The notes beneath the pieces were generated by a model, which saw nothing but the letters and a program-made list of their open reading frames with translations, ran no database searches and was not told where the DNA came from. A program made the position numbers and the translations under genes. Positions 31,773-41,351 of a stretch of 64,000 nt of DNA are shown one piece after another (positions within the stretch are counted from its first letter, which is position 1; every line of letters begins with the position of its first letter). The stretch spans positions 1 through 64,000 of the forward strand of contig JAQBPY010000299.1 of the NCBI GenBank assembly GCA_028287285.1, read 5' to 3'. Source of the stretch: Gemmatimonadota bacterium (GTDB lineage Bacteria; Gemmatimonadota; Gemmatimonadetes; Gemmatimonadales; Gemmatimonadaceae).

Positions 31773-33118
31773 TACGCATGCGTCTGGCGACACTCGCTCT
31801 GGTCCTCCTGAGCAGCGCGGCGCGCGCGGATGCGCCGCGAGTGGCTCGTGTAATGGCGGCGATGCCCGGTGTCGCCGCAGAGACGGCGACCACCGTAAAG
31901 TTCGACGTCAACGGTGTGTCGGTGATCCTGCGCAGGAATCCGGCAAACGAAGTAGTCGTGGCGAACCTGTACCTGCTGGGCGGCGCGCGTCAGCTCACGC
32001 CGGCAAACGCCGGCATCGAGGCCATGATTCTCGCCGCAAGCGAGCGCGGAACGAAGCGTTTTCCCGGTGCGGCCGTGCGGCAGCTCACGGCGCGTCTTGG
32101 CAGCACCATCGGCATCGAGGCGAGTGACGATTGGAGTGCCATTGGCCTGCGCGCCATTCGCGCGACGTTTGATTCCACGTGGGCCATTCTGGCAGACCGG
32201 GTGGCGGCGCCAACGCTCGACCCCATCGAAGTCGGGCTGGTACGCGAGCAACTGCTCTCCGTTGCGCGCGAGCGTTCGACGTCGCCGGACGACGCGGCCT
32301 CCCAGCTCGCCGACAGTCTGCTGTACGTGAATCATCCGTACGCGGTTGCGCCCACGGGCACGCCGGAATCCATCTCCTCGCTGACCATCGCACAGCTCAG
32401 GCAGTATCACGCGCAGCAGTTCGTCACGTCGCGCATGCTGCTCGTGGTGGTGGGCAACGTCGATCGTGACCAGGTGGAGCGATTGGTGCGTGGAACCATC
32501 GCGAACCTTCCCCGGGGCACCTACCGCTGGACGCCTTCGCCACCGGTGACCACCACCGGCCGGGCGCTCGCCGTGGACAATCGTCCGCTGCCCACCAACT
32601 ACCTGTTGGGCTATGTGCCCGGCCCTGCCGCGACCAACCCTGACTACGCCGCTCTGCGGGTGGCCACGGCCATCCTCTCGGGCCGGCTGTTCACGGAGGT
32701 CCGCTCGCGCAGGAATCTCAGCTACGCGGTGGAGGCGCCGTTCATCGAGCGCGCGAATGCCGTAGGAGGGCTGTATGTCACCACGGTCGATCCCAATCAG
32801 GTGCTGCGGATCATGCGCGAGCAGCTGACGATCCTGCAGACGGAATCGGTGGAAGCCACCGGCCTGAAGCGGCTCGAGCAGCAGTTCATCACGGAGTACT
32901 ACCTCAAGAACGAGACGAACGCCGACCAGGCAAATGTGCTTGCCCGCGCGGAGCTCTATGAGGGAGACTACCGCAACGCCGACAAGTTCATGGCGGGTCT
33001 CCGTCAGGTCACTCCGGAAGACGTCCGCCGAGTGGCGCGCACGTACCTGAAGGATTTCCGTTTCGCGTATGTGGGTGACGCGAGCAAGCTCGATCGCTCA
33101 CTGCTCGCGCAGTTCTGA
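31769..33118 (+). CDS. M16 peptidase-like non-catalytic subunit
   Basis: A 449-residue partner of the preceding peptidase. It has a signal peptide (MRLATLALVLLSSAARA) but lacks HxxEH: the corresponding stretch reads NAGIEAMILAASERG. It keeps the arginine-tyrosine motif RSRRNLSYAVEA in the second half, which in heterodimeric M16B enzymes completes the substrate pocket. GTG 31769 overlaps the upstream stop; ATG 31778 is an alternative. Its 3' end overlaps hisIE on the opposite strand by 21 bases. Confidence 0.88.
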   Translation: MIRMRLATLALVLLSSAARADAPRVARVMAAMPGVAAETATTVKFDVNGVSVILRRNPANEVVVANLYLLGGARQLTPANAGIEAMILAASERGTKRFPGAAVRQLTARLGSTIGIEASDDWSAIGLRAIRATFDSTWAILADRVAAPTLDPIEVGLVREQLLSVARERSTSPDDAASQLADSLLYVNHPYAVAPTGTPESISSLTIAQLRQYHAQQFVTSRMLLVVVGNVDRDQVERLVRGTIANLPRGTYRWTPSPPVTTTGRALAVDNRPLPTNYLLGYVPGPAATNPDYAALRVATAILSGRLFTEVRSRRNLSYAVEAPFIERANAVGGLYVTTVDPNQVLRIMREQLTILQTESVEATGLKRLEQQFITEYYLKNETNADQANVLARAELYEGDYRNADKFMAGLRQVTPEDVRRVARTYLKDFRFAYVGDASKLDRSLLAQF

Positions 33119-33718
33119 CGGCCTCGCAGCCTCGTGTCGTGCGGCCAGGATAGCCTGGACGTCTGCGAGCGTGCCGCCCACAGCGTGCAACGCAACCAGG
33201 CTGTGGTAGATCACGTCGGCCGCTTCTTCCCGCGCACGGTCAACGTCGCCGTCGGCGCAGGCCGTCACGAGCTCCGCTGATTCTTCGCCAAGTTTTTTCA
33301 GGCGCAGGTTGCGATCGGTGAGGAGCTTTTGCGTGTAGCTCGGGCTCGGCGCCGCCGAAGCGCGCTGGCTGATCAGCGTGTCCAGCATGTTCAGGGCGCC
33401 GGCTGTTTCCGTGCCGAAACACGAGCGCGTGCCCGTATGACATGCCGGACCTGCAGACGTCACCCGCGCGAGCACCGCATCACCGTCGCAGTCGGCCGCC
33501 AGTGAAACGACGCGCTGCGTGTTGCCGCTCGTCGCACCCTTGTGCCACAGGCCGCGCGTGCGTGAGCGATAGTGCATCTCGCCGGTGTCCAACGTGTGCT
33601 GGAGCGCCTCGCGGTCCGCGTGCGCCACCATCAGAACTACACCTGTAGTTGAATCCTGGGTCACGACGGTGACGCTGCCGTCGCCCTTCGCAAAATCCAG
33701 CTGGTTCAAGTCGAGCAT
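33098..33718 (-). CDS. hisIE: Bifunctional phosphoribosyl-AMP cyclohydrolase / phosphoribosyl-ATP pyrophosphatase
   Basis: Catalyses the second and third steps of histidine synthesis. The N-terminal HisI part (residues 1-115) includes TRGLWHKGATSGN and the zinc ligands in DCDGDAV and ACHTGTRSCF. The C-terminal HisE part has LRLKKLGEESAELVTA and EEAADVIYHSLVAL, the magnesium-binding helices of the MazG-like pyrophosphatase. It is the last gene of the histidine operon. ATG 33718 is chosen since the upstream frame lies in a non-coding gap of 52 bases. Confidence 0.93.
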   Translation of the reverse strand: MLDLNQLDFAKGDGSVTVVTQDSTTGVVLMVAHADREALQHTLDTGEMHYRSRTRGLWHKGATSGNTQRVVSLAADCDGDAVLARVTSAGPACHTGTRSCFGTETAGALNMLDTLISQRASAAPSPSYTQKLLTDRNLRLKKLGEESAELVTACADGDVDRAREEAADVIYHSLVALHAVGGTLADVQAILAARHEAARPSELREQ

Positions 33719-33770
33719 GTCAATGTTCCCGAGGAGCCTGATTGTCGACGACACGAAGAAATGCGGCGAG

Positions 33771-34532
33771 TCACTCTTTACGCAGGAGAGATCGCACGGT
33801 CGTGGCGAGCGCCCTGTTCGTTGCAACGGCACTGCCGCCGAACGCCGTTGCCCTGCCACTCCAATCTGTAAACACCCCGCCGGCTTCGGTGATGATTGGC
33901 TGCAGGGCCGCCGCATCCCACGGTGACATGACCGGATCCACCATCACTTCTGCCCGACCCGTGGCAACAAGGAGATAGCCGAAACAATCTCCCCAGATGC
34001 GACTCACGCTGGCGGCACGGGACACACGTTGCCAGCCAGCGTGAAACTCCCGTCGTTCGCGAAAGCGCTCATCGGTTGTAAGAGCCGTTGCGTCAGCGAG
34101 GGAGGATACGGACGACACACCACAGCGCGCACCATTCCACCAGCACCCCTTGCCGGGAGCGGCAACAACAATCTCATTCACGGCCGGAAAATAGGCGGCG
34201 CCCACGAGCACGTCCTCTCCCTCACACAACGCAACGAGCGAGCCCCACAGTGGCGAGCCGCGCACGAACGACTTCGTGCCGTCGATAGGGTCAATGACCC
34301 ACCGCCGCTGTGCCCCCGGACGTTCCTCACCAAACTCCTCGCCGAGTATGCCGTCTGCGGGATGGAGACGATTGACCCATTCCCGCGCCGCGGTCTCGGC
34401 CGCACGGTCTGCCACCGTAACAGGCGACCCATCCGCCTTGATCTCGACGTGGAGATGCGAGCGATAGTGCCGGAGCGCGATGTCGCCGGTGAGACGGGCC
34501 AGCTCCGACGCAGCGTCGAGAAGCGTGCTCAC
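33771..34532 (-). CDS. hisN: Histidinol-phosphate phosphatase, inositol monophosphatase type
   Basis: A 253-residue magnesium phosphatase of the IMPase fold that probably removes phosphate from histidinol phosphate. Family motifs are GEEFGEE, the metal-binding WVIDPIDGTKSFVRG near residue 83 and the C-terminal DPVMSPWDAAALQPIITEAGG. GTG 34532 overlaps the hisF stop. The location between hisF and hisIE supports the histidine role, since the hisB here encodes only the dehydratase. Confidence 0.88.
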   Translation of the reverse strand: MSTLLDAASELARLTGDIALRHYRSHLHVEIKADGSPVTVADRAAETAAREWVNRLHPADGILGEEFGEERPGAQRRWVIDPIDGTKSFVRGSPLWGSLVALCEGEDVLVGAAYFPAVNEIVVAAPGKGCWWNGARCGVSSVSSLADATALTTDERFRERREFHAGWQRVSRAASVSRIWGDCFGYLLVATGRAEVMVDPVMSPWDAAALQPIITEAGGVFTDWSGRATAFGGSAVATNRALATTVRSLLRKE

Positions 34533-35287
34533 GCCGCGCGCACCATGAGATGCACCCGGCGCATGGCATCCTTGATCTCGCCAACGGTCGTTATGCCATC
34601 GTGCAGGATGCCGGCAACGAGCGCTGCATCCGCACCACCATGCTGAAACACGTCGCACACATGCTGCAGCGAGCCCGCGCCACCCGAGGCGACCACCGGC
34701 ACGTCCACCGCTGACGACACGGCACGCGTGAGCTCGATATCGTAACCGGTGCGCGCACCATCCTGATCGATGCTCGTCAGCAGGATCTCACCGGCCCCTC
34801 GGCGGACGCATTCGGCCGCCCACCTGATCGCGTCGAGCTCCGTGCGCTCACGTCCGCCTTTCACGTGCACGAACCAGTGCGATCCTTCACGTTTGGCATC
34901 AATACTGGCTACCACACACTGCGATCCAAAGCGCCGCGCCGATTCCGTGAGCACTTCCGGCCGAACAACCGCAGCGGAATTGATGCTCACCTTGTCTGCA
35001 CCGGCGCGCAACGCGCTGCCCACATCGTCGGCAGAGCGAATGCCACCACCCAGGGTGAGTGGAATGAATAGACGCTCCGCGGTACGACGGGCGACGTCGA
35101 GCAGCGTTCCACGTTCCTCTGCGCTCGCGGAGATGTCCAGCAGCACGATTTCGTCGGCGCCGGCCAGCTCATAGCGAGTTGCCAGCTCTACTGGATCGCC
35201 AACGTCCCGAAGGTTCACGAACGACGTGCCTTTCACCACACGTCCTCCGCGGACGTCAAGGCACACGACGACGCGTTTGGTCAGCAT
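34529..35287 (-). CDS. hisF: Imidazole glycerol phosphate synthase, cyclase subunit
   Basis: The TIM-barrel subunit that, with ammonia from HisH, forms imidazole glycerol phosphate and AICAR. The 252-residue protein begins MLTKRVVVCLDVRGGRVVKG with the catalytic aspartate near residue 11; the second catalytic aspartate lies in SIDQDGARTGYDIEL. It follows hisB after a 63-base gap that contains a family-1 repeat. Its stop overlaps hisN. Confidence 0.96.
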   Translation of the reverse strand: MLTKRVVVCLDVRGGRVVKGTSFVNLRDVGDPVELATRYELAGADEIVLLDISASAEERGTLLDVARRTAERLFIPLTLGGGIRSADDVGSALRAGADKVSINSAAVVRPEVLTESARRFGSQCVVASIDAKREGSHWFVHVKGGRERTELDAIRWAAECVRRGAGEILLTSIDQDGARTGYDIELTRAVSSAVDVPVVASGGAGSLQHVCDVFQHGGADAALVAGILHDGITTVGEIKDAMRRVHLMVRAA

Positions 35288-35307
35288 GTTCCCCCGGGCA
35301 AGAAAAA

Positions 35308-35357
35308 CAGGTCCTTCGCTGCGTTCAGGACGACAACTTTGTCGGCCATATCAGGAC
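35308..35357. repeat. Intergenic palindromic repeat, family 1, copy c (inside the his operon)
   Basis: CAGGTCCTTCGCTGCGTTCA and GGACGACA, then TCAGGAC, which contains the hisB stop codon. It sits in the only sizeable gap within the front part of the operon and may act as a processing or stability hairpin. Confidence 0.7.
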
Positions 35358-35896
35358 GCACCGTTGATACGGAGTGCTATCGCGCCCTTGGTGCTGAACA
35401 CGGCGCCCGAATCAACAAACGCGTCGCGCACGGCAAGACCAAGTGCCTTGAACGCCGCCTCCACGATATGGTGCCGGTCCGTGCCGCGCAGCACCCGCAC
35501 GTGCAGTGTGGCGCCTGCATTGTCACTGAACGAACGCATCCAGTGATCATACAGGCCGCTCGGCAACGGCCCCCGGTAATACGGACGTCCGCCCAGGTCG
35601 AGCGCGCAGTGTACCAGCGCGTCATCCATTGGAATTGTGCGATCGCCGTATCGGGCTGCCGTGGCGGGCAGCAGCGCCCTCATTGCCGCACCAACACAAA
35701 TGCCAACGTCCTCGATGAGGTGATGCCTGAGATCACCCGTGGCCGTGAGAGACAGATCGAGCCCGCTGTACCGCGAAAAGGCCACGAGCATGTGATCGAA
35801 AAAAGGCAGCCCTGTAGAAACGCCGGCAGCACCCGTGCCAACGGTCAGCTCGCAACGAATGTTCGTTTCCCTGGTTTCACGAGCCACGACGGTCAT
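35351..35896 (-). CDS. hisB: Imidazoleglycerol-phosphate dehydratase
   Basis: A manganese enzyme that dehydrates imidazole glycerol phosphate. The 181-residue protein shows the metal-binding LPFFDHMLVAFSRYSG and DLRHHLIEDVGICVG, and a second copy of the HHIVEAAFKALG motif. There is no phosphatase domain, unlike the fused enterobacterial HisB, so HisN supplies that step. ATG 35896 gives MTVVARETRETNI. It lies 22 bases downstream of hisA. Confidence 0.95.
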   Translation of the reverse strand: MTVVARETRETNIRCELTVGTGAAGVSTGLPFFDHMLVAFSRYSGLDLSLTATGDLRHHLIEDVGICVGAAMRALLPATAARYGDRTIPMDDALVHCALDLGGRPYYRGPLPSGLYDHWMRSFSDNAGATLHVRVLRGTDRHHIVEAAFKALGLAVRDAFVDSGAVFSTKGAIALRINGAS

Positions 35897-35918
35897 TGGA
35901 CACTCCACGAGTGAAAAA

Positions 35919-36632
35919 TCATTCGCCGAACTCGTCTGCCACCACGATGGGATCGAGCGCTCCTGTGTAGAGCGCCATGCCAATGACGACGCCCGCCAGC
36001 CCGCGATGCTCCAGGGCACGGATGTCATCCATCGTGGTCACGCCACCAGATGCCAGTACCGGAAAATTCGACAGCTCAGCGACGTCTTCCATAAGGGGAA
36101 GATCTGTCCCCTGCATCTGCCCCTCCCGATGGACCGCCGTCACGAGCAAGCCGCCAAGTGCAAGCGAGTTGAGCTCGCCCACCACGTCGAGAATGTCAAC
36201 GGGAAGCGTGTGTGCCCAGCCACGCGTGGTCACCCTCCGTTCGCGGACGTCGCACGCAACGATGATCTCACCCGGATAACGGGCCGCCAGATCCGCGAGC
36301 CACTCGGGCTCTTCAATGGCGCGGGTCCCGACGATCACACGTGATGCCCCGGCGTCGAGCAGCTCCTCGACGAGGTCACTCGATCGCACACCGCCGCCCA
36401 CCTGGACACTGATGCCGCTCGACGTGAGCAGCGCACGAACAATGGACAGGTTGGATCCACGATTCGTTGCCGCATCGAGATCCACCACGTGCAGCCGTTG
36501 AAAGCCATAGTGCTCCCACGAACGGGCGACCTCAACAGGGTTCTCGAGCCGCACTTTTTCCTGCGCGAACGATCCACCCACGAGCTGCACACACGCTCCG
36601 TCCCGGAGATCAACGGCGGGAATGGCAATCAC
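35919..36632 (-). CDS. hisA: ProFAR isomerase
   Basis: TIM-barrel isomerase of the fourth histidine step, about 237 residues. It starts VIAIPAVDLRDGACVQLVGG with the catalytic aspartate at residue 8. Phosphate-binding loops are seen at VQVGGGVRSS and VLASGGVTTMDD, and the second catalytic residue region at LVTAVHREGQM. GTG 36632 overlaps the hisH stop by four bases. Confidence 0.94.
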   Translation of the reverse strand: MIAIPAVDLRDGACVQLVGGSFAQEKVRLENPVEVARSWEHYGFQRLHVVDLDAATNRGSNLSIVRALLTSSGISVQVGGGVRSSDLVEELLDAGASRVIVGTRAIEEPEWLADLAARYPGEIIVACDVRERRVTTRGWAHTLPVDILDVVGELNSLALGGLLVTAVHREGQMQGTDLPLMEDVAELSNFPVLASGGVTTMDDIRALEHRGLAGVVIGMALYTGALDPIVVADEFGE

Positions 36633-37231
36633 GGCGTTACTCCGGTCTTGAGAAAGGCGTGCAGCAGTTGCACGCCGGCGGCAGAGCTCTTCTCGGGATG
36701 AAACTGGAGGCCAACCGTATTTCCAGCACGTACAGCCGCCGGAAAACGATCCCCCTCGTGTGTCGTCCACGCAGCCACGGCCAATTCATCCGTGGGCCGG
36801 CACACGAAGCTGTTGGCATAGTACGCCATGGACAATGGGGCCGATGCGAACAGCGCATCTCCGGCAACAGGGGTCACGTCATTCCAGCCGATTTGCGGAA
36901 CACGTGCAGCATTCAAGCGTGTCACGCGTCCCGCAATGACGCCCAACCCTTCTCCCGCTCCTTCATCACTCGCATCGAACAACAGCTGCATGCCAAGGCA
37001 GATGCCAAGTGTCGGCAGGCCACGTTGAATGGCATCGCGCATGATGCCGCGCCCAGATGCCAGTCGCTCGGCCGCCGCGCCAAAAGCACCAACGCCAGGC
37101 AGCACCAGCACGTCCGTTTCAACGGCGCGCACAGGATCCGTCTCGATCGCGAGCGAAACATCAGTCGTGTCGAGCGCCTTCGCGAGCGAGTGCAGATTCC
37201 CCGCCCCATAGTCAAAGATTGTTACACGCAT
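36629..37231 (-). CDS. hisH: Imidazole glycerol phosphate synthase, glutamine amidotransferase subunit
   Basis: Hydrolyses glutamine to feed ammonia to HisF. This class I amidotransferase of 200 residues begins MRVTIFDYGAGNLHSL. The nucleophile cysteine lies in GICLGMQLLFD near residue 82, and the His-Glu pair in LQFHPEKS near the C-terminus. The PGVGAFG oxyanion region is present. The start codon shares a base with the hisC stop (TGATG). Confidence 0.95.
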   Translation of the reverse strand: MRVTIFDYGAGNLHSLAKALDTTDVSLAIETDPVRAVETDVLVLPGVGAFGAAAERLASGRGIMRDAIQRGLPTLGICLGMQLLFDASDEGAGEGLGVIAGRVTRLNAARVPQIGWNDVTPVAGDALFASAPLSMAYYANSFVCRPTDELAVAAWTTHEGDRFPAAVRAGNTVGLQFHPEKSSAAGVQLLHAFLKTGVTP

Positions 37232-38307
37232 CAGAGCACCGGTGCCAGTCTGTCCAGCAGTCCCTGCATCATCTCCCACGGACCAACACCGATACGTAAC
37301 GCCGCACCGTTGCTTGCCGCGAGCATCGGAATCTCCAGCGGCAACCCGGTGAACGGCCGAACGAGCACACCCTGCTCCCGCAACGCAATGCCGATCTCTC
37401 GCGCCCTGGCCAGCGGCACCATCACAAAGCTCGCAGCACTTGGCAGCACCGGCAGCCCAAGAGTGGAGAGCGCTGCAGCAAGCCGATTGCGATTGGTTAC
37501 GGCGAGCGCTGCATGTTCACGCACCCAGCCCAATCCGTCCGGCGTGGTATCGAGCGTAGCGAGGACAGCGCGCTCCGCGAGGGAGCTCACCTTGTACGGA
37601 CCACGCGCGCGCTCCACGAGACGAATGATCTCGCGCGATCCCACGCCGTAGCCAACACGCAATCCCGCCAGACCAAATGCCTTGGAGAACGTGCGAACAA
37701 CGATGAGCCGGTCGTTGTTGGCCACAAGATCAGCGAACGTTTCCGGCGCAAACTCCGCGTACGCCTCATCCAGCATCACGATGCCGCGCGCACGTGCGAC
37801 CACGTACTCCACCGCCGATCGGGATATGCTGGTTGCGGTGGGGTTATTCGGCGCGCAGAGATAGGTAATCTTTGCCTCACAATCCACGAGCTGCTCGGCG
37901 TCAACATCGAAATCCGGCATCAGTGGCACTTCACGCAGTGCCAGGCCATTGAGTCGAGCGAGCACGGGGATCATCGAGAATGTCGGCACCGAGTAGGCGA
38001 TGGAGTTGCCGGTGTCGCCAAACGCGCGCATCGTGGAATCGAGCACGTCGTCCGATCCACAGCCCGTTACCACGCTCGCGTCAGTCAACTCCACGTACTG
38101 CAGGATCGCACCGCGAAGCGGCTCGGAATAGACAGACGGATATCGCGACACCGAGGATCCCATTGCCGAGGAGATCATGCGTAACGCCGCCGGCGGTGCG
38201 CCCCAGAGATTCGTGTTGTCGCTGACGTCGATGTCACACGTTGTTCCATCGGGAGCATAGAGCGGCAGCTCGCGCACGCCAGTGCGCGCCAGTTCATTCG
38301 CGCCCAT
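37231..38307 (-). CDS. hisC: Histidinol-phosphate aminotransferase
   Basis: A PLP aminotransferase of about 358 residues. The cofactor lysine is in TFSKAFGLAGLRVGYG near residue 215; YLCAPNNPTAT and IVMLDEAYAEF form the cofactor pocket. ATG 38307 lies inside the end of hisD, with a 14-base overlap, giving MGANELARTGVREL. The frame is open to 38382, but this would overlap hisD further. Confidence 0.93.
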   Translation of the reverse strand: MGANELARTGVRELPLYAPDGTTCDIDVSDNTNLWGAPPAALRMISSAMGSSVSRYPSVYSEPLRGAILQYVELTDASVVTGCGSDDVLDSTMRAFGDTGNSIAYSVPTFSMIPVLARLNGLALREVPLMPDFDVDAEQLVDCEAKITYLCAPNNPTATSISRSAVEYVVARARGIVMLDEAYAEFAPETFADLVANNDRLIVVRTFSKAFGLAGLRVGYGVGSREIIRLVERARGPYKVSSLAERAVLATLDTTPDGLGWVREHAALAVTNRNRLAAALSTLGLPVLPSAASFVMVPLARAREIGIALREQGVLVRPFTGLPLEIPMLAASNGAALRIGVGPWEMMQGLLDRLAPVL

Positions 38308-39607
38308 GAACGGCCTCCGCGAATGCACGCGCGGCCAACGCATGTCCGCCAAGTCCTTCGGCGTCGGCAAACACACCGACATCCTGCGACAGACGCGCCG
38401 CAGCCGCGGAGGAAATGCGTTGATACGTGGTCCATCGCACGAAATCCAGTGTGGAAAGTCCCGAGTGCGAGCGTGCGAGCCCGCCGGTGGGGAGCACGTG
38501 ATTCGCGCCGGTCATGTAATCACCAAATGCGACGGATGCATGCGGGCCAACGAATATGGTGCCTGCGTTCCTGATGCGATCGAGAATATTCTCTGTGTCG
38601 CCCACGACGAGCAGGAGATGCTCCGCTGCATACGCGTTCGCAAACTGAACGGCGTCGTCAAGCGAGTCAGCGTAAAGCACCGCGCCCTGGCCGGCCAACG
38701 CCTCCAATGCAACATCGGCGCGTGGCTGTGACGGAAGCAGTGATGCAATGGCCTCACCCACTGCGCGTGCAACAGGCGCGCTCGTTGCAACAACGACGAC
38801 AGCCGCCATGGGATCATGCTCCGCCTGGGCGAGTACTTCGCGTGCGACGAAGCGCACATCTGCCGAGTCGTCCGCCAACACCAATAGTTCGCTTGGCCCC
38901 GCCGGTGAATCGATCGCCACGCTGCTGGACACCTGGATCTTTGCTTCGGCCACGTAAGCATTGCCGGGCCCCACCACGCAGTCGACACGCGGCACGCTCT
39001 CGGTGCCGTAGGCCAACGCGGCGATCGCACCCGCGCCGCCCAACGCAAAGACACGATCGGCACCGGCAAGTGCAGCCGCAGCCAGGACAACGGCAGATGG
39101 TTGTCCGCTCCCACGCACTGGCGGCGAACAGACGATGATCTCGCCAACGCCGGCGACACGCGCCGGAATGACGCCCATGAGCACACTGCTCGGATACGCG
39201 GCGCGCCCACCGGGTGCATAGACCCCCACTCGTCCCAGCGCGTCCGGTCGACGTCCAACGACAATGCCCGGTTCACTTTCCGTCTCCTGAGCAATGGGGC
39301 GAAACGCCTCGTGTACGCGACGGATATTTGTGGCGGCGCGCTGCATCACACGCCGCAGATCGGGCGTCAGTGCCTCCAGCGCGGCCGCACACACGTGACG
39401 AGGCACCTCGAGCGACGCGAGGGACACGCCATCCAGCTCGACGGCCAGCGCCCGCAACGCCGCGTCGCCACCGGCCCGAACGCGTGCAATGATGTCCGAG
39501 GTCCGGTGCCGCACCACGTCATCACTCGACTGCGACCGGTCGAGCAGCGCTCGCCGGTCTGCCACAGACAGGGCCGATACCGCGCCAGTCCAACGAACGA
39601 GTGTCAT
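38294..39607 (-). CDS. hisD: Histidinol dehydrogenase
   Basis: A zinc-dependent NAD oxidoreductase making histidine from histidinol in two steps. The 437-residue protein contains VYAPGGRAAYPSSVLMGVIPA, GPGNAYVAEAKIQV, the signature around DSPAGPSELLVLAD and QAEHDPMA, and the C-terminal YMTGANHVLPTGG with the catalytic histidine. ATG 39607 overlaps the hisG stop by four bases. Confidence 0.96.
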   Translation of the reverse strand: MTLVRWTGAVSALSVADRRALLDRSQSSDDVVRHRTSDIIARVRAGGDAALRALAVELDGVSLASLEVPRHVCAAALEALTPDLRRVMQRAATNIRRVHEAFRPIAQETESEPGIVVGRRPDALGRVGVYAPGGRAAYPSSVLMGVIPARVAGVGEIIVCSPPVRGSGQPSAVVLAAAALAGADRVFALGGAGAIAALAYGTESVPRVDCVVGPGNAYVAEAKIQVSSSVAIDSPAGPSELLVLADDSADVRFVAREVLAQAEHDPMAAVVVVATSAPVARAVGEAIASLLPSQPRADVALEALAGQGAVLYADSLDDAVQFANAYAAEHLLLVVGDTENILDRIRNAGTIFVGPHASVAFGDYMTGANHVLPTGGLARSHSGLSTLDFVRWTTYQRISSAAAARLSQDVGVFADAEGLGGHALAARAFAEAVHGRE

Positions 39608-40467
39608 GCCATCAACCTCTCGATGCGCGTGACCAAAATGCCCTCGGCGCCGAGTGACTTGAGATCCGCGATCGTTCTGTAGATCGTTTCTGCCGCGACG
39701 ACAGAATGCACGGCGACGAATGCGCCGCCGTTCATGATGTCGATCACCGTTGGTCCATTGAGCCCCGGAACCACACGCTTCACCTCGTCGAGCCGTTCGC
39801 GCGGGACATTCGCCATCACGTACCGCTTTCCGCGGGCAGCGATGACGCTGGCCAGCGCGCCAACCAGCTCATCGAGCGCGCGCACGCGATTCGGGTCGCT
39901 CCGCACCGTGCGATTGGTGATCAGGCGGCTAGTGGACTCGAATACCGTTCCAAGCTCGCGCAACCCGTTCACGCGCAGTGTGGATCCCGTGGACACGAGG
40001 TCCACGATGATGTCCGCGATTCCAAGGTGTGGGGCGATCTCCGCGGCGCCCGACATGGGCACGACGTCCACGGCGATGCCGCGAGCGGCAAAGAATCGGG
40101 TGGTGATATTGGGAAACACCGTGGCCACGCGCATGCCGGCGCGCACGTCGTCAACTGCGTGCAGGCCGCTGTCGTCTCGGGCGGCGACGGCCAGGTGACA
40201 GCGGCCGAACTCGAGATCCGCGAGCTCCTCGAGGTCGCGTCCCGATTCTTGGATCAGGTCGAATCCGGTGACGCCAGCATCGGCCGCACCATCGGCGACG
40301 AATTCCGGAATGTCCTGCGCGCGCACGAACAGCGCCTCGAACTCGCCGCCCAGTGAGGCGGTAAGCGCGCGCGGGCCCGCGGAGCGGATGGCGAGGCCGG
40401 CATCCGTGAGCAGCTCCTGACACTCGTCGGAGAGGCGGCCTTTATTGGGTAGTGCGATGCGAAGCAT
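39604..40467 (-). CDS. hisG: ATP phosphoribosyltransferase, long form
   Basis: The committing enzyme of histidine synthesis. About 287 residues: the catalytic domains begin MLRIALPNKGRLSD and include the PRPP-binding DLVSTGSTLRVNGL near residue 156. The C-terminal 75 residues form the ACT-like regulatory domain (VIDIMNGGAFVAVHSVVAAETI), so this is the HisZ-independent form that histidine inhibits directly. ATG 40467 is 25 bases downstream of the attenuator terminator stem. Confidence 0.95.
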   Translation of the reverse strand: MLRIALPNKGRLSDECQELLTDAGLAIRSAGPRALTASLGGEFEALFVRAQDIPEFVADGAADAGVTGFDLIQESGRDLEELADLEFGRCHLAVAARDDSGLHAVDDVRAGMRVATVFPNITTRFFAARGIAVDVVPMSGAAEIAPHLGIADIIVDLVSTGSTLRVNGLRELGTVFESTSRLITNRTVRSDPNRVRALDELVGALASVIAARGKRYVMANVPRERLDEVKRVVPGLNGPTVIDIMNGGAFVAVHSVVAAETIYRTIADLKSLGAEGILVTRIERLMA

Positions 40468-40491
40468 GTGTGACGAAGGTCTGGTAGCAAA

Positions 40492-40521
40492 GAAAAAGGC
40501 CCGTCCGGAAAGGGACGAGCC
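40492..40521 (-). terminator. Histidine operon attenuator terminator
   Basis: On the minus strand GGCTCGTCC pairs with GGACGGGCC (nine pairs, one G-U) around a six-base loop and is followed by TTTTTCT. It is a classical intrinsic terminator between the leader peptide and hisG. Confidence 0.85.
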
Positions 40522-40561
40522 AAGGAACCGACAACTGCGCTGGGACCAGGAAGCTGGCCGC

Positions 40562-40642
40562 TTACCCCTCTGCGCGTGCGTCGCCCTGACCCGAAAGGCC
40601 ATGGTGATGATGCACGTGGTGGTGGGGGCGGGCGCTGGTCAT
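40562..40642 (-). CDS. hisL: Histidine operon leader peptide
   Basis: A 26-codon ORF, too short for normal gene calling. It begins MTSARP, then HHHVHHHH, seven histidine codons in eight, and ends DARAEG with TAA. It lies 41 bases upstream of the terminator and 95 bases upstream of hisG. By analogy with enterobacterial his operons, ribosome stalling at the His codons when His-tRNA is scarce would favour an antiterminator and let transcription enter hisG. An AGGGG...AGC stretch at the leader's end could pair with the terminator's first arm (GCTCGTCCCTT), but I have not folded it. The start codon coincides with the predicted transcription start. Confidence 0.82.
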   Translation of the reverse strand: MTSARPHHHVHHHHGLSGQGDARAEG

Positions 40643-40649
40643 GGATCGC

Positions 40650-40678
40650 AACCTATCCGGGTCATTGCCCGAGGTCAA
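40650..40678 (-). promoter_or_regulatory. Histidine operon promoter
   Basis: On the minus strand TTGACC (40678-40673) and TAGGTT (40655-40650) are separated by 17 bases. The predicted start is at 40642 or 40643, the first base of the leader-peptide ATG, so the transcript would be leaderless. Confidence 0.6.
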
Positions 40679-40757
40679 CGCCAGCGTGGTGCATGTGCTG
40701 CGGCTCATTTGGGTGTGCTGGTGCTTGGGAAGCGAGCTGATTTGCGTCTACACCCCC

Positions 40758-40775
40758 TTGTGAATAAATTCACAA
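40758..40775. promoter_or_regulatory. CRP-type operator palindrome
   Basis: TTGTGAATAAATTCACAA is a perfect dyad and contains TGTGA-N6-TCACA, the consensus of CRP-family sites. It lies 58 bases before the cupredoxin start and about 80 bases upstream of the his promoter, in the divergent region. Confidence 0.55.
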
Positions 40776-40776
40776 T

Positions 40777-40798
40777 GCCGCCCGGGGCCCCGTGCGGC
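40777..40798 (+). other. GC-rich hairpin in the cupredoxin leader
   Basis: GCCGC and GCGGC flank the palindrome CGGGGCCCCG, forming a stable stem before the ribosome-binding site TTTTTGGAGG of the cupredoxin gene. Confidence 0.4.
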
Positions 40799-40832
40799 GC
40801 AACTCACGATCAGTTTTTGGAGGCTTCAAGAA

Positions 40833-41351
40833 ATGCGGTTCTACGGTATTGCACTCCTCACGGGCGCTGCGCTCATGAGCGCGTGCGGCGGCGAGAAGAA
40901 AGCAACGGATTCAGCCGCTGCGGCGCCTGCGGCAAGCACCACCCCGGCAGCGACGACTACCCCAGCCGCCGCCGCTCCGGCAGCTGGCGCGGCAGCCGCT
41001 GCTCCGATCACCGGCAAGACGGTCGAAGTCAAGATGATCGGCGATGCCACCGGCTACAAGTTCGAGCCCGCCACCATCACCATCAAGAAGGGTGACGGCG
41101 TGAAGTTCATCATGGTCTCCGGCGGACCGCACAACGTCGCATTCCAGAACGTGGCCGATGCCGGCGCCTCGGCGCAGCTCGACGCGAACATGCCCGGCAC
41201 CGACAAGCTTGGCCCGCTGTCGTCCCACCTACTCTCCGCTCCGAACGAGTCGTACGTGGTCTCCTTCGGCAATGTGGCAGCCGGTTCGTACGACTACATC
41301 TGCACGCCGCACGCGGCGATGAACATGAAGGGCACGATCAAGGTCGAGTAA
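40833..41351 (+). CDS. Plastocyanin-like blue-copper lipoprotein
   Basis: A 172-residue lipoprotein: signal peptide ending at lipobox LMSAC, then a 45-residue Ala/Thr/Pro linker and a cupredoxin domain. Type 1 copper ligands are visible: His in SGGPHNVAF, then Cys, His and Met in YDYICTPHAAM. The domain starts VEVKMIGDATGYKFEPATITIKKGD. It probably carries electrons in the periplasm, anchored to the membrane with the flexible linker. GGAGG lies 11 bases before the ATG. The adjacent CRP-type palindrome may regulate it. Confidence 0.92.
   Translation: MRFYGIALLTGAALMSACGGEKKATDSAAAAPAASTTPAATTTPAAAAPAAGAAAAAPITGKTVEVKMIGDATGYKFEPATITIKKGDGVKFIMVSGGPHNVAFQNVADAGASAQLDANMPGTDKLGPLSSHLLSAPNESYVVSFGNVAAGSYDYICTPHAAMNMKGTIKVE

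Follow-up and report, generated by a model that had tools for sequence, protein, structure and literature searches.

A predicted leaderless, ribosome-mediated attenuator ahead of the histidine operon in Gemmatimonadaceae, and candidate sister switches with codons for other amino acids

By what means could a soil bacterium of the Gemmatimonadaceae adjust its histidine operon to the supply of histidine, and could the short reading frame lying just ahead of hisG be the sensor? Ribosome-mediated attenuation, a textbook mechanism, was reportedly placed by Vitreschak et al. in 2004 in gamma- and alphaproteobacteria plus some cases in other groups. The locus considered here belongs to a window of 64,000 nucleotides (positions 1 to 64,000, forward strand, of contig JAQBPY010000299.1, assembly GCA_028287285.1), within a 6.1 Mb draft genome whose HisG is nearest, among named records, to those of MAGs titled Gemmatimonadaceae or Gemmatimonadetes. 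A previous reading of this DNA, made from the sequence only, had pointed to a 26-codon frame encoding HHHVHHHH and to a nine-pair terminator with a U-tract ahead of hisG, and both are present. The hisL-like leader peptide frame, MTSARPHHHVHHHHGLSGQGDARAEG, occupies 40562–40642 of the minus strand (26 codons and a TAA), with its regulatory codons CACCACCACGTGCATCATCACCAT, seven of them for His, at 40601–40624. In the list of open reading frames it extends upstream to an ATG at 40708, giving 48 amino acids; its start is placed at 40642 because of the relatives and the position of the promoter. Its His density is unique among the short frames of the window (15–45 amino acids), since more than four His codons in a nine-codon stretch occur in only 1 of 1372. 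After a gap of 40 bases comes the terminator stem-loop C:D, GGCTCGTCC-CTTTCC-GGACGGGCC (40498–40521, minus strand), whose nine pairs are conserved; it runs into the U-tract TTTTTCTTTGC (40487–40497), reading GGCTCGTCC-CTTTCC-GGACGGGCC-TTTTTCTT when written through that tract, and 30 bases separate the stem from the hisG ATG at 40467.

The genes downstream, all on the minus strand, form an operon in the order hisG-D-C-H-A-B-F-N-IE, spanning 33098–40467. The first is hisG, for ATP phosphoribosyltransferase (39604–40467, TIGR00070), and profile matches define hisD (38294–39607), hisH (36629–37279), hisA (35919–36770) and hisB, for imidazoleglycerol-phosphate dehydratase (35351–36028). The aminotransferase gene at 37231–38382 is hisC-like, hisC being its best match, under the curated cut-off; hisF (34529–35287), hisN, for histidinol-phosphatase (33771–34658), and hisIE (33098–33916) were identified further downstream. 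hisG itself is not preceded by a Shine-Dalgarno sequence, and the bases ahead of its ATG (40468–40497 in the window) are rich in C and T in most relatives.

When the region upstream of hisG was aligned among relatives and folded, as the sequence-only reading had advised, the His run and the stem both proved to be conserved, and the RNA was found to have another fold with which the terminator is incompatible. Three mutually exclusive conserved helices can be recognized: a protector A:B, an antiterminator B:C and the terminator C:D. Arm A adjoins the 3′ side of the His codons (GGCCT in the window, usually GGCCC in relatives) and is followed by B (CGGGTC), the two making up the protector hairpin GGCCT-TTC-GGGTC at 40588–40600; the antiterminator joins its 5′ strand B, CGGGTCAGGG (40584–40593, placed by alignment and fold model), to the 3′ strand CCTTGGCTCG (40516–40525), which overlaps terminator arm C, all on the minus strand. 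In alignment A1 (67 sequences, 66 of them distinct), whose pair counts were compared with 500 shuffles and with slides of 1–3 columns, the terminator is paired in 96% of cells, the protector in 86% (over the 66 sequences) and the antiterminator in 84%; for all three helices the percentage lies above every slide and was reached by 0/500 shuffles. Double changes number 22 in the terminator (shuffle mean 5.1, 0/500 as high) and are few in the antiterminator taken alone (8 cells; shuffle mean 3.8, 13/500 as high), since B and C hardly vary. The argument for a putative antiterminator is thus built on positional constancy and on the sister leaders described below.

This constancy is found in the CGGG core of B: in 86 of 101 leaders it comes 6–8 bases past the last His codon. 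In at least seven of them (L010, L014, L026, L031, L070, L083, L098) the core falls in a different reading frame, giving peptides such as SRAGA (L010), LRVGA (L026) and PRAAA (L031, L098) in place of the usual PTGRG, and therefore it is the RNA word, not the peptide, that is conserved; an automatic tally of 18 out-of-frame cores is inflated by other CGGG words caught in L005, L006, L049 and L090. Shuffle tests of B:C pairing in single leaders (p ≤ 0.05 in 40/105, often not beyond the shuffles) are weak in such G+C-rich sequence, and the alignment counts were used in their place. Folding the whole region gave z values of only −1.6 and −1.0, which carry no information for a switch that alternates between states.

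The effect of a ribosome on these helices was modelled by masking the bases that it would cover, to 12 past the first base of the A-site codon, in a transcript extending up to arm C. On the window's transcript, the antiterminator forms in this model with a probability of 0.98 when the ribosome is stalled, whichever of the seven His codons it occupies; without a ribosome the values are 0.001 for the antiterminator, 0.96 for the protector and 0.998 for the terminator. Once arm D has been made, the terminator is favored at equilibrium in every state (0.95–0.99 even with a stalled ribosome), and therefore the decision of the switch must be kinetic; hisL of E. coli K-12, where attenuation is established, has the same equilibrium outcome under the same model. 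In the 105 homologues, sequestration of arm C amounts to 0.76 with a stalled ribosome, 0.39 with the ribosome at the stop codon and 0.62 with none, and it is quite frequent with a shuffled linker too (0.61, stalled).

Where would such a ribosome be loaded? Comparison with relatives places a −10 box, TAGGTT, at 40650–40655 and, across a 17-base spacer, a −35 box, TTGACC, at 40673–40678 that is kept in them (both minus strand). A strict scan for promoter hexamers over 40000–41200, either side, returned nothing and missed the promoter that comparison shows, so that its placement rests on comparison. Transcription from sigma-70 promoters starts about seven bases past the −10 box, and the predicted start here is at about 40643–40642, that is, at the leader ATG; no Shine-Dalgarno sequence fits between this predicted 5′ end and the start codon. 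In 87 of 105 family leaders a perfect promoter (TTGAC, 16–18 bases, TAnnnT) ends 4–12 bases 5′ of the start codon, while at seven shifted positions the pattern fits 1/105 at one and 0/105 at the six others; this shifted-position test was relied on, as the distance to the best-placed −10 box is bounded by the range searched. An abutting promoter in so many leaders argues that the his leader is likely translated leaderless, from a transcript whose 5′ end would lie at the start codon or within a few bases of it.

If these parts are put together, they suggest the following sequence of events. RNA polymerase would start at the leader ATG or no more than one or two bases away, and a ribosome would load straight onto the 5′ AUG and trail the polymerase. 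With ample charged His-tRNA, this ribosome would reach the stop codon, A:B would re-form behind it, and arm C would be left free to form C:D, halting transcription ahead of hisG. With histidine short, the ribosome would stall on the His run, preventing A from pairing and leaving B free to pair with C before D is made, in such a way that the terminator would be missed and hisG-D-C-H-A-B-F-N-IE would be transcribed. Stalling, readthrough and leaderless initiation are steps that we infer; that histidine scarcity turns the switch on through stalling at the His codons is probable, judging from comparison and modelling. The locus has a leader frame in which codons for histidine, the product of its operon, stand in a run, an intrinsic terminator between that frame and the first structural gene and, according to comparison and model, an antiterminator that excludes the terminator and would be exposed by a stalled ribosome. 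The attenuator proposed by the sequence-only reading is thus supported by the comparison of relatives and by the ribosome-mask model, and is very likely; we would give a probability of roughly 0.93 to the his operon being controlled by ribosome-mediated transcription attenuation, the ribosome likely loading on a leaderless 5′ AUG.

Other explanations for the same arrangement are that the attenuator is real but its leader is read from a longer 5′ UTR, that the His-rich frame encodes a functional small protein, or that the hairpin is a plain insulator. The longer 5′ UTR, beginning for example ahead of the ATG at 40708, would agree with the frame being open up to that codon and with the approximately 25-base 5′ UTR of a Met leader ahead of homoserine dehydrogenase; however, the frame upstream of 40642 is not kept in relatives, the perfect promoter lies as close to the conserved start as described and almost never at the shifted positions, and the space is too small for any Shine-Dalgarno sequence, which together make this version unlikely.

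We consider the other two less probable still, and to an equal degree. A small protein that binds metals, for example, and whose message is merely ended by the hairpin, is not a strange idea, as His runs bind metals. A leader peptide can also act in trans, as has been reported of peTrpL in Sinorhizobium meliloti (PMC7298713). This explanation is opposed by the RNA word being kept where the C-terminal half is read in another frame, by the constant placement just ahead of hisG, and by sister leaders that carry Tyr/Phe or Thr runs ahead of genes of the matching pathway. As for a terminator that shields hisG from transcription arriving from upstream, the gene having its own promoter past the hairpin, a strong terminator close ahead of a gene can indeed insulate, and the empty strict scan fits the idea; yet the roughly 30 bases from stem to hisG leave no room for both a promoter and a leader, the promoter conserved in relatives sits 5′ of the leader frame, and the conserved antiterminator word would be left without a role.

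The attenuator so understood is not limited to a single genome. Of 179 Gemmatimonadaceae genomes, 133 have a match to the window's HisG; the 46 without one, some of them more than 95% complete, may be auxotrophs or have another form of HisG. Among 107 hisG upstream regions of the family, 105 have a His-rich leader (at least four His codons in nine), MPTLRQHHHHAHHGHGPTGRGYYVHAQVIGR being that of genome G042, and the two exceptions are L058, with Ns in a leader whose His run is still visible, and L081, without a His-rich leader. HisG homologues at 32–34% identity (L108–L111) also follow a His leader, with a terminator of different sequence. At E ≤ 0.01 a covariance model of the his switch, R1, has hits in 244 of 395 Gemmatimonadota genomes. 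Some in three other families (f2, f4, f5) are strong, and His leaders precede hisG there at loci L257, L258, L260 and L264 (gene names assigned by eye). One genome (G237, contig C210) has two His leaders about 9.5 kb apart, L264 ahead of hisG and L263 ahead of a hisC-like gene, again by eye; this pair reads as an attenuator duplicated in a split his operon.

Outside the phylum, R1 matches below E 1e-11 occur in 68 of 193 genomes drawn from the phylum of the Myxococcus record, the same parts stand ahead of hisG in Myxococcus, Corallococcus, Archangium and Hyalangium, and three Eisenbacteria MAGs match at E 1e-25 to 1e-27, a His-rich leader preceding hisG in Eisenbacteria as well. The switch is phylum-wide and also common to Myxococcaceae and Eisenbacteria. 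In a HisG tree these two groups are nearer to Gemmatimonadaceae than are two HisG of another Gemmatimonadota family, in a sample picked by similarity and with deep forks that are unsupported. Many weak R1 matches (E about 1e-3; L231, L236, L268, L269, L271) were set aside as chance stretches, probably inside genes. The titles of two records (L174, L127) look wrong: the HisG of 'Comamonas sp. KCTC 72670' falls among Myxococcus, and a record titled 'Candidatus Kuenenia' matches the Gemmatimonadaceae genome G071 in hit position.

In relation to the known systems, the likeness to enterobacterial hisL that had been drawn in size, composition and position stands only in part. Shared with hisL of E. 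coli K-12 are the seven His codons, the terminator before hisG, the alternative helices and a terminator favored at equilibrium; in contrast, the leader has 26 codons against 16, its last His codon lies 36 bases from the stop against 6, its promoter abuts the start codon and its protector hairpin sits directly behind the His codons. Rfam His_leader does not match the region even at E ≤ 10, and the whole window yields only RNase P in Rfam, with no known leader or T-box; this RNase P RNA, of bacterial class A, lies at 1157–1530 of the minus strand. Fifteen homologous or sister loci also gave no Rfam match at gathering score, and the switch is an RNA family absent from Rfam.

In 2010 leader-peptide systems were known only from Proteobacteria and Actinobacteria, Bacillus then being added (PMC2965389), and Firmicutes his attenuators followed in 2022 (PMC9413887). 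The latter, and the hisS/hisZ leaders (PMC2965389), are similar in having a His leader, an antiterminator and a terminator, predicted by comparison, but they carry runs of three to five His codons and are scattered in few groups, whereas the present switch is near-universal in Gemmatimonadaceae. The leaderless trpL of S. meliloti also has its leader frame at the 5′ end of the transcript and ribosome-mediated attenuation, although it senses Trp rather than His, belongs to Alphaproteobacteria and, in the accessible part of that paper, is accompanied by no report of the layout being reused for other amino acids (PMC7298713). Actinobacteria attenuators have similar G+C-rich complementary words but concern Trp, Cys, Leu and ilv operons, with no his attenuator in the accessible part of the source (PMC1262725). 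Our search, which took in few subscription papers, found no paper on leader-peptide attenuation in Gemmatimonas or Gemmatimonadetes, or on a Myxococcus his attenuator; as far as that search extends, the mechanism is classical and the novelty lies in the lineage, in a leaderless layout for his, and in how broadly that layout occurs and is reused.

This reuse is seen among the weaker R1 matches, which include leaders of the same layout with other codons, the genes downstream being identified by NCBIfam. The window's own genome (contig C155, 50939–51130; L280, L298, L315) has a leaderless leader, MSSRAQYSVFFFSYRYPDTGRGWRRCA, and a terminator ahead of DAHP synthase, which reads as a putative Tyr/Phe attenuator conserved in the family: an aromatic-rich leader and terminator precede 15 of the 17 closest family homologues (L327 has few aromatic codons in its leader, and L317 is cut by the contig end), with a perfect abutting promoter in 12 of the 17. 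The B and C words of these leaders differ from those of his yet match each other (TCCACGGGCCG/TGGCCCGTGGA, CCGGGAGCCGG/TCGGCTCCCGG), and own pairs outscore swapped pairs in 14/18 (p 0.02). With the same layout, a Thr-run leader lies ahead of aspartokinase (L265, G364) and a Tyr leader ahead of phenylalanine 4-monooxygenase (L266, G107). Ahead of homoserine dehydrogenase in the window's genome (contig C5, 9053–9211; L274) there is a Met-rich leader, MLRSARMLMPMMMTAFPLGETDGRARVYDA, with a terminator and the 5′ UTR of about 25 bases mentioned above; L346 (G001) has a similar leader. In Myxococcus xanthus AM003 the GTG-started leader VSFVITTTTTGTTTRFGGRGTVRVTW (L229) precedes thrS, and from its sequence it is probably a Thr attenuator. 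Two of nine family genomes (L365, G111; L367, G090) have leader frames rich in Val, Ile and Leu, with terminators, ahead of ilvB, and the other seven upstream regions show no such attenuator. A leaderless Leu/Val-rich leader with a strong terminator, MQRSAAVLLLTSALGRVIGRGLLCLGGSTE, also occurs in the window's genome (contig C115, 48449; L292), with no clear gene within 1.4 kb downstream.

It is conceivable, as a tentative proposal to which we give somewhat less than even odds, that all of these are one modular leaderless chassis (abutting promoter, short frame, antiterminator word behind the regulatory codons, GGCCCGT-type terminator arm) recoded across Gemmatimonadota and Myxococcota to sense His, Tyr/Phe, Thr, Met or branched-chain amino acids, and that the his version moved between phyla with the his operon. 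Ribosome-mediated amino-acid attenuation would in any case be extended to Gemmatimonadota, there as the rule rather than the exception, which would imply tight coupling of transcription and translation and efficient leaderless translation in this phylum. The dozens of natural variants of a single switch offer material for work on where the ribosome stalls and on kinetics, and in soil bacteria that have been little studied the leaders with Tyr/Phe, Thr, Met or branched-chain codons yield predictions of the amino acid to which each downstream gene responds. In the window's genome as a whole, the pattern of TTGAC and TAnnnT abutting an ATG was found 23 times and its reversed form 4 times, and several of the 23 (e.g., L290, L301) abut the ATG of full-length reading frames; leaderless genes may therefore be frequent there.
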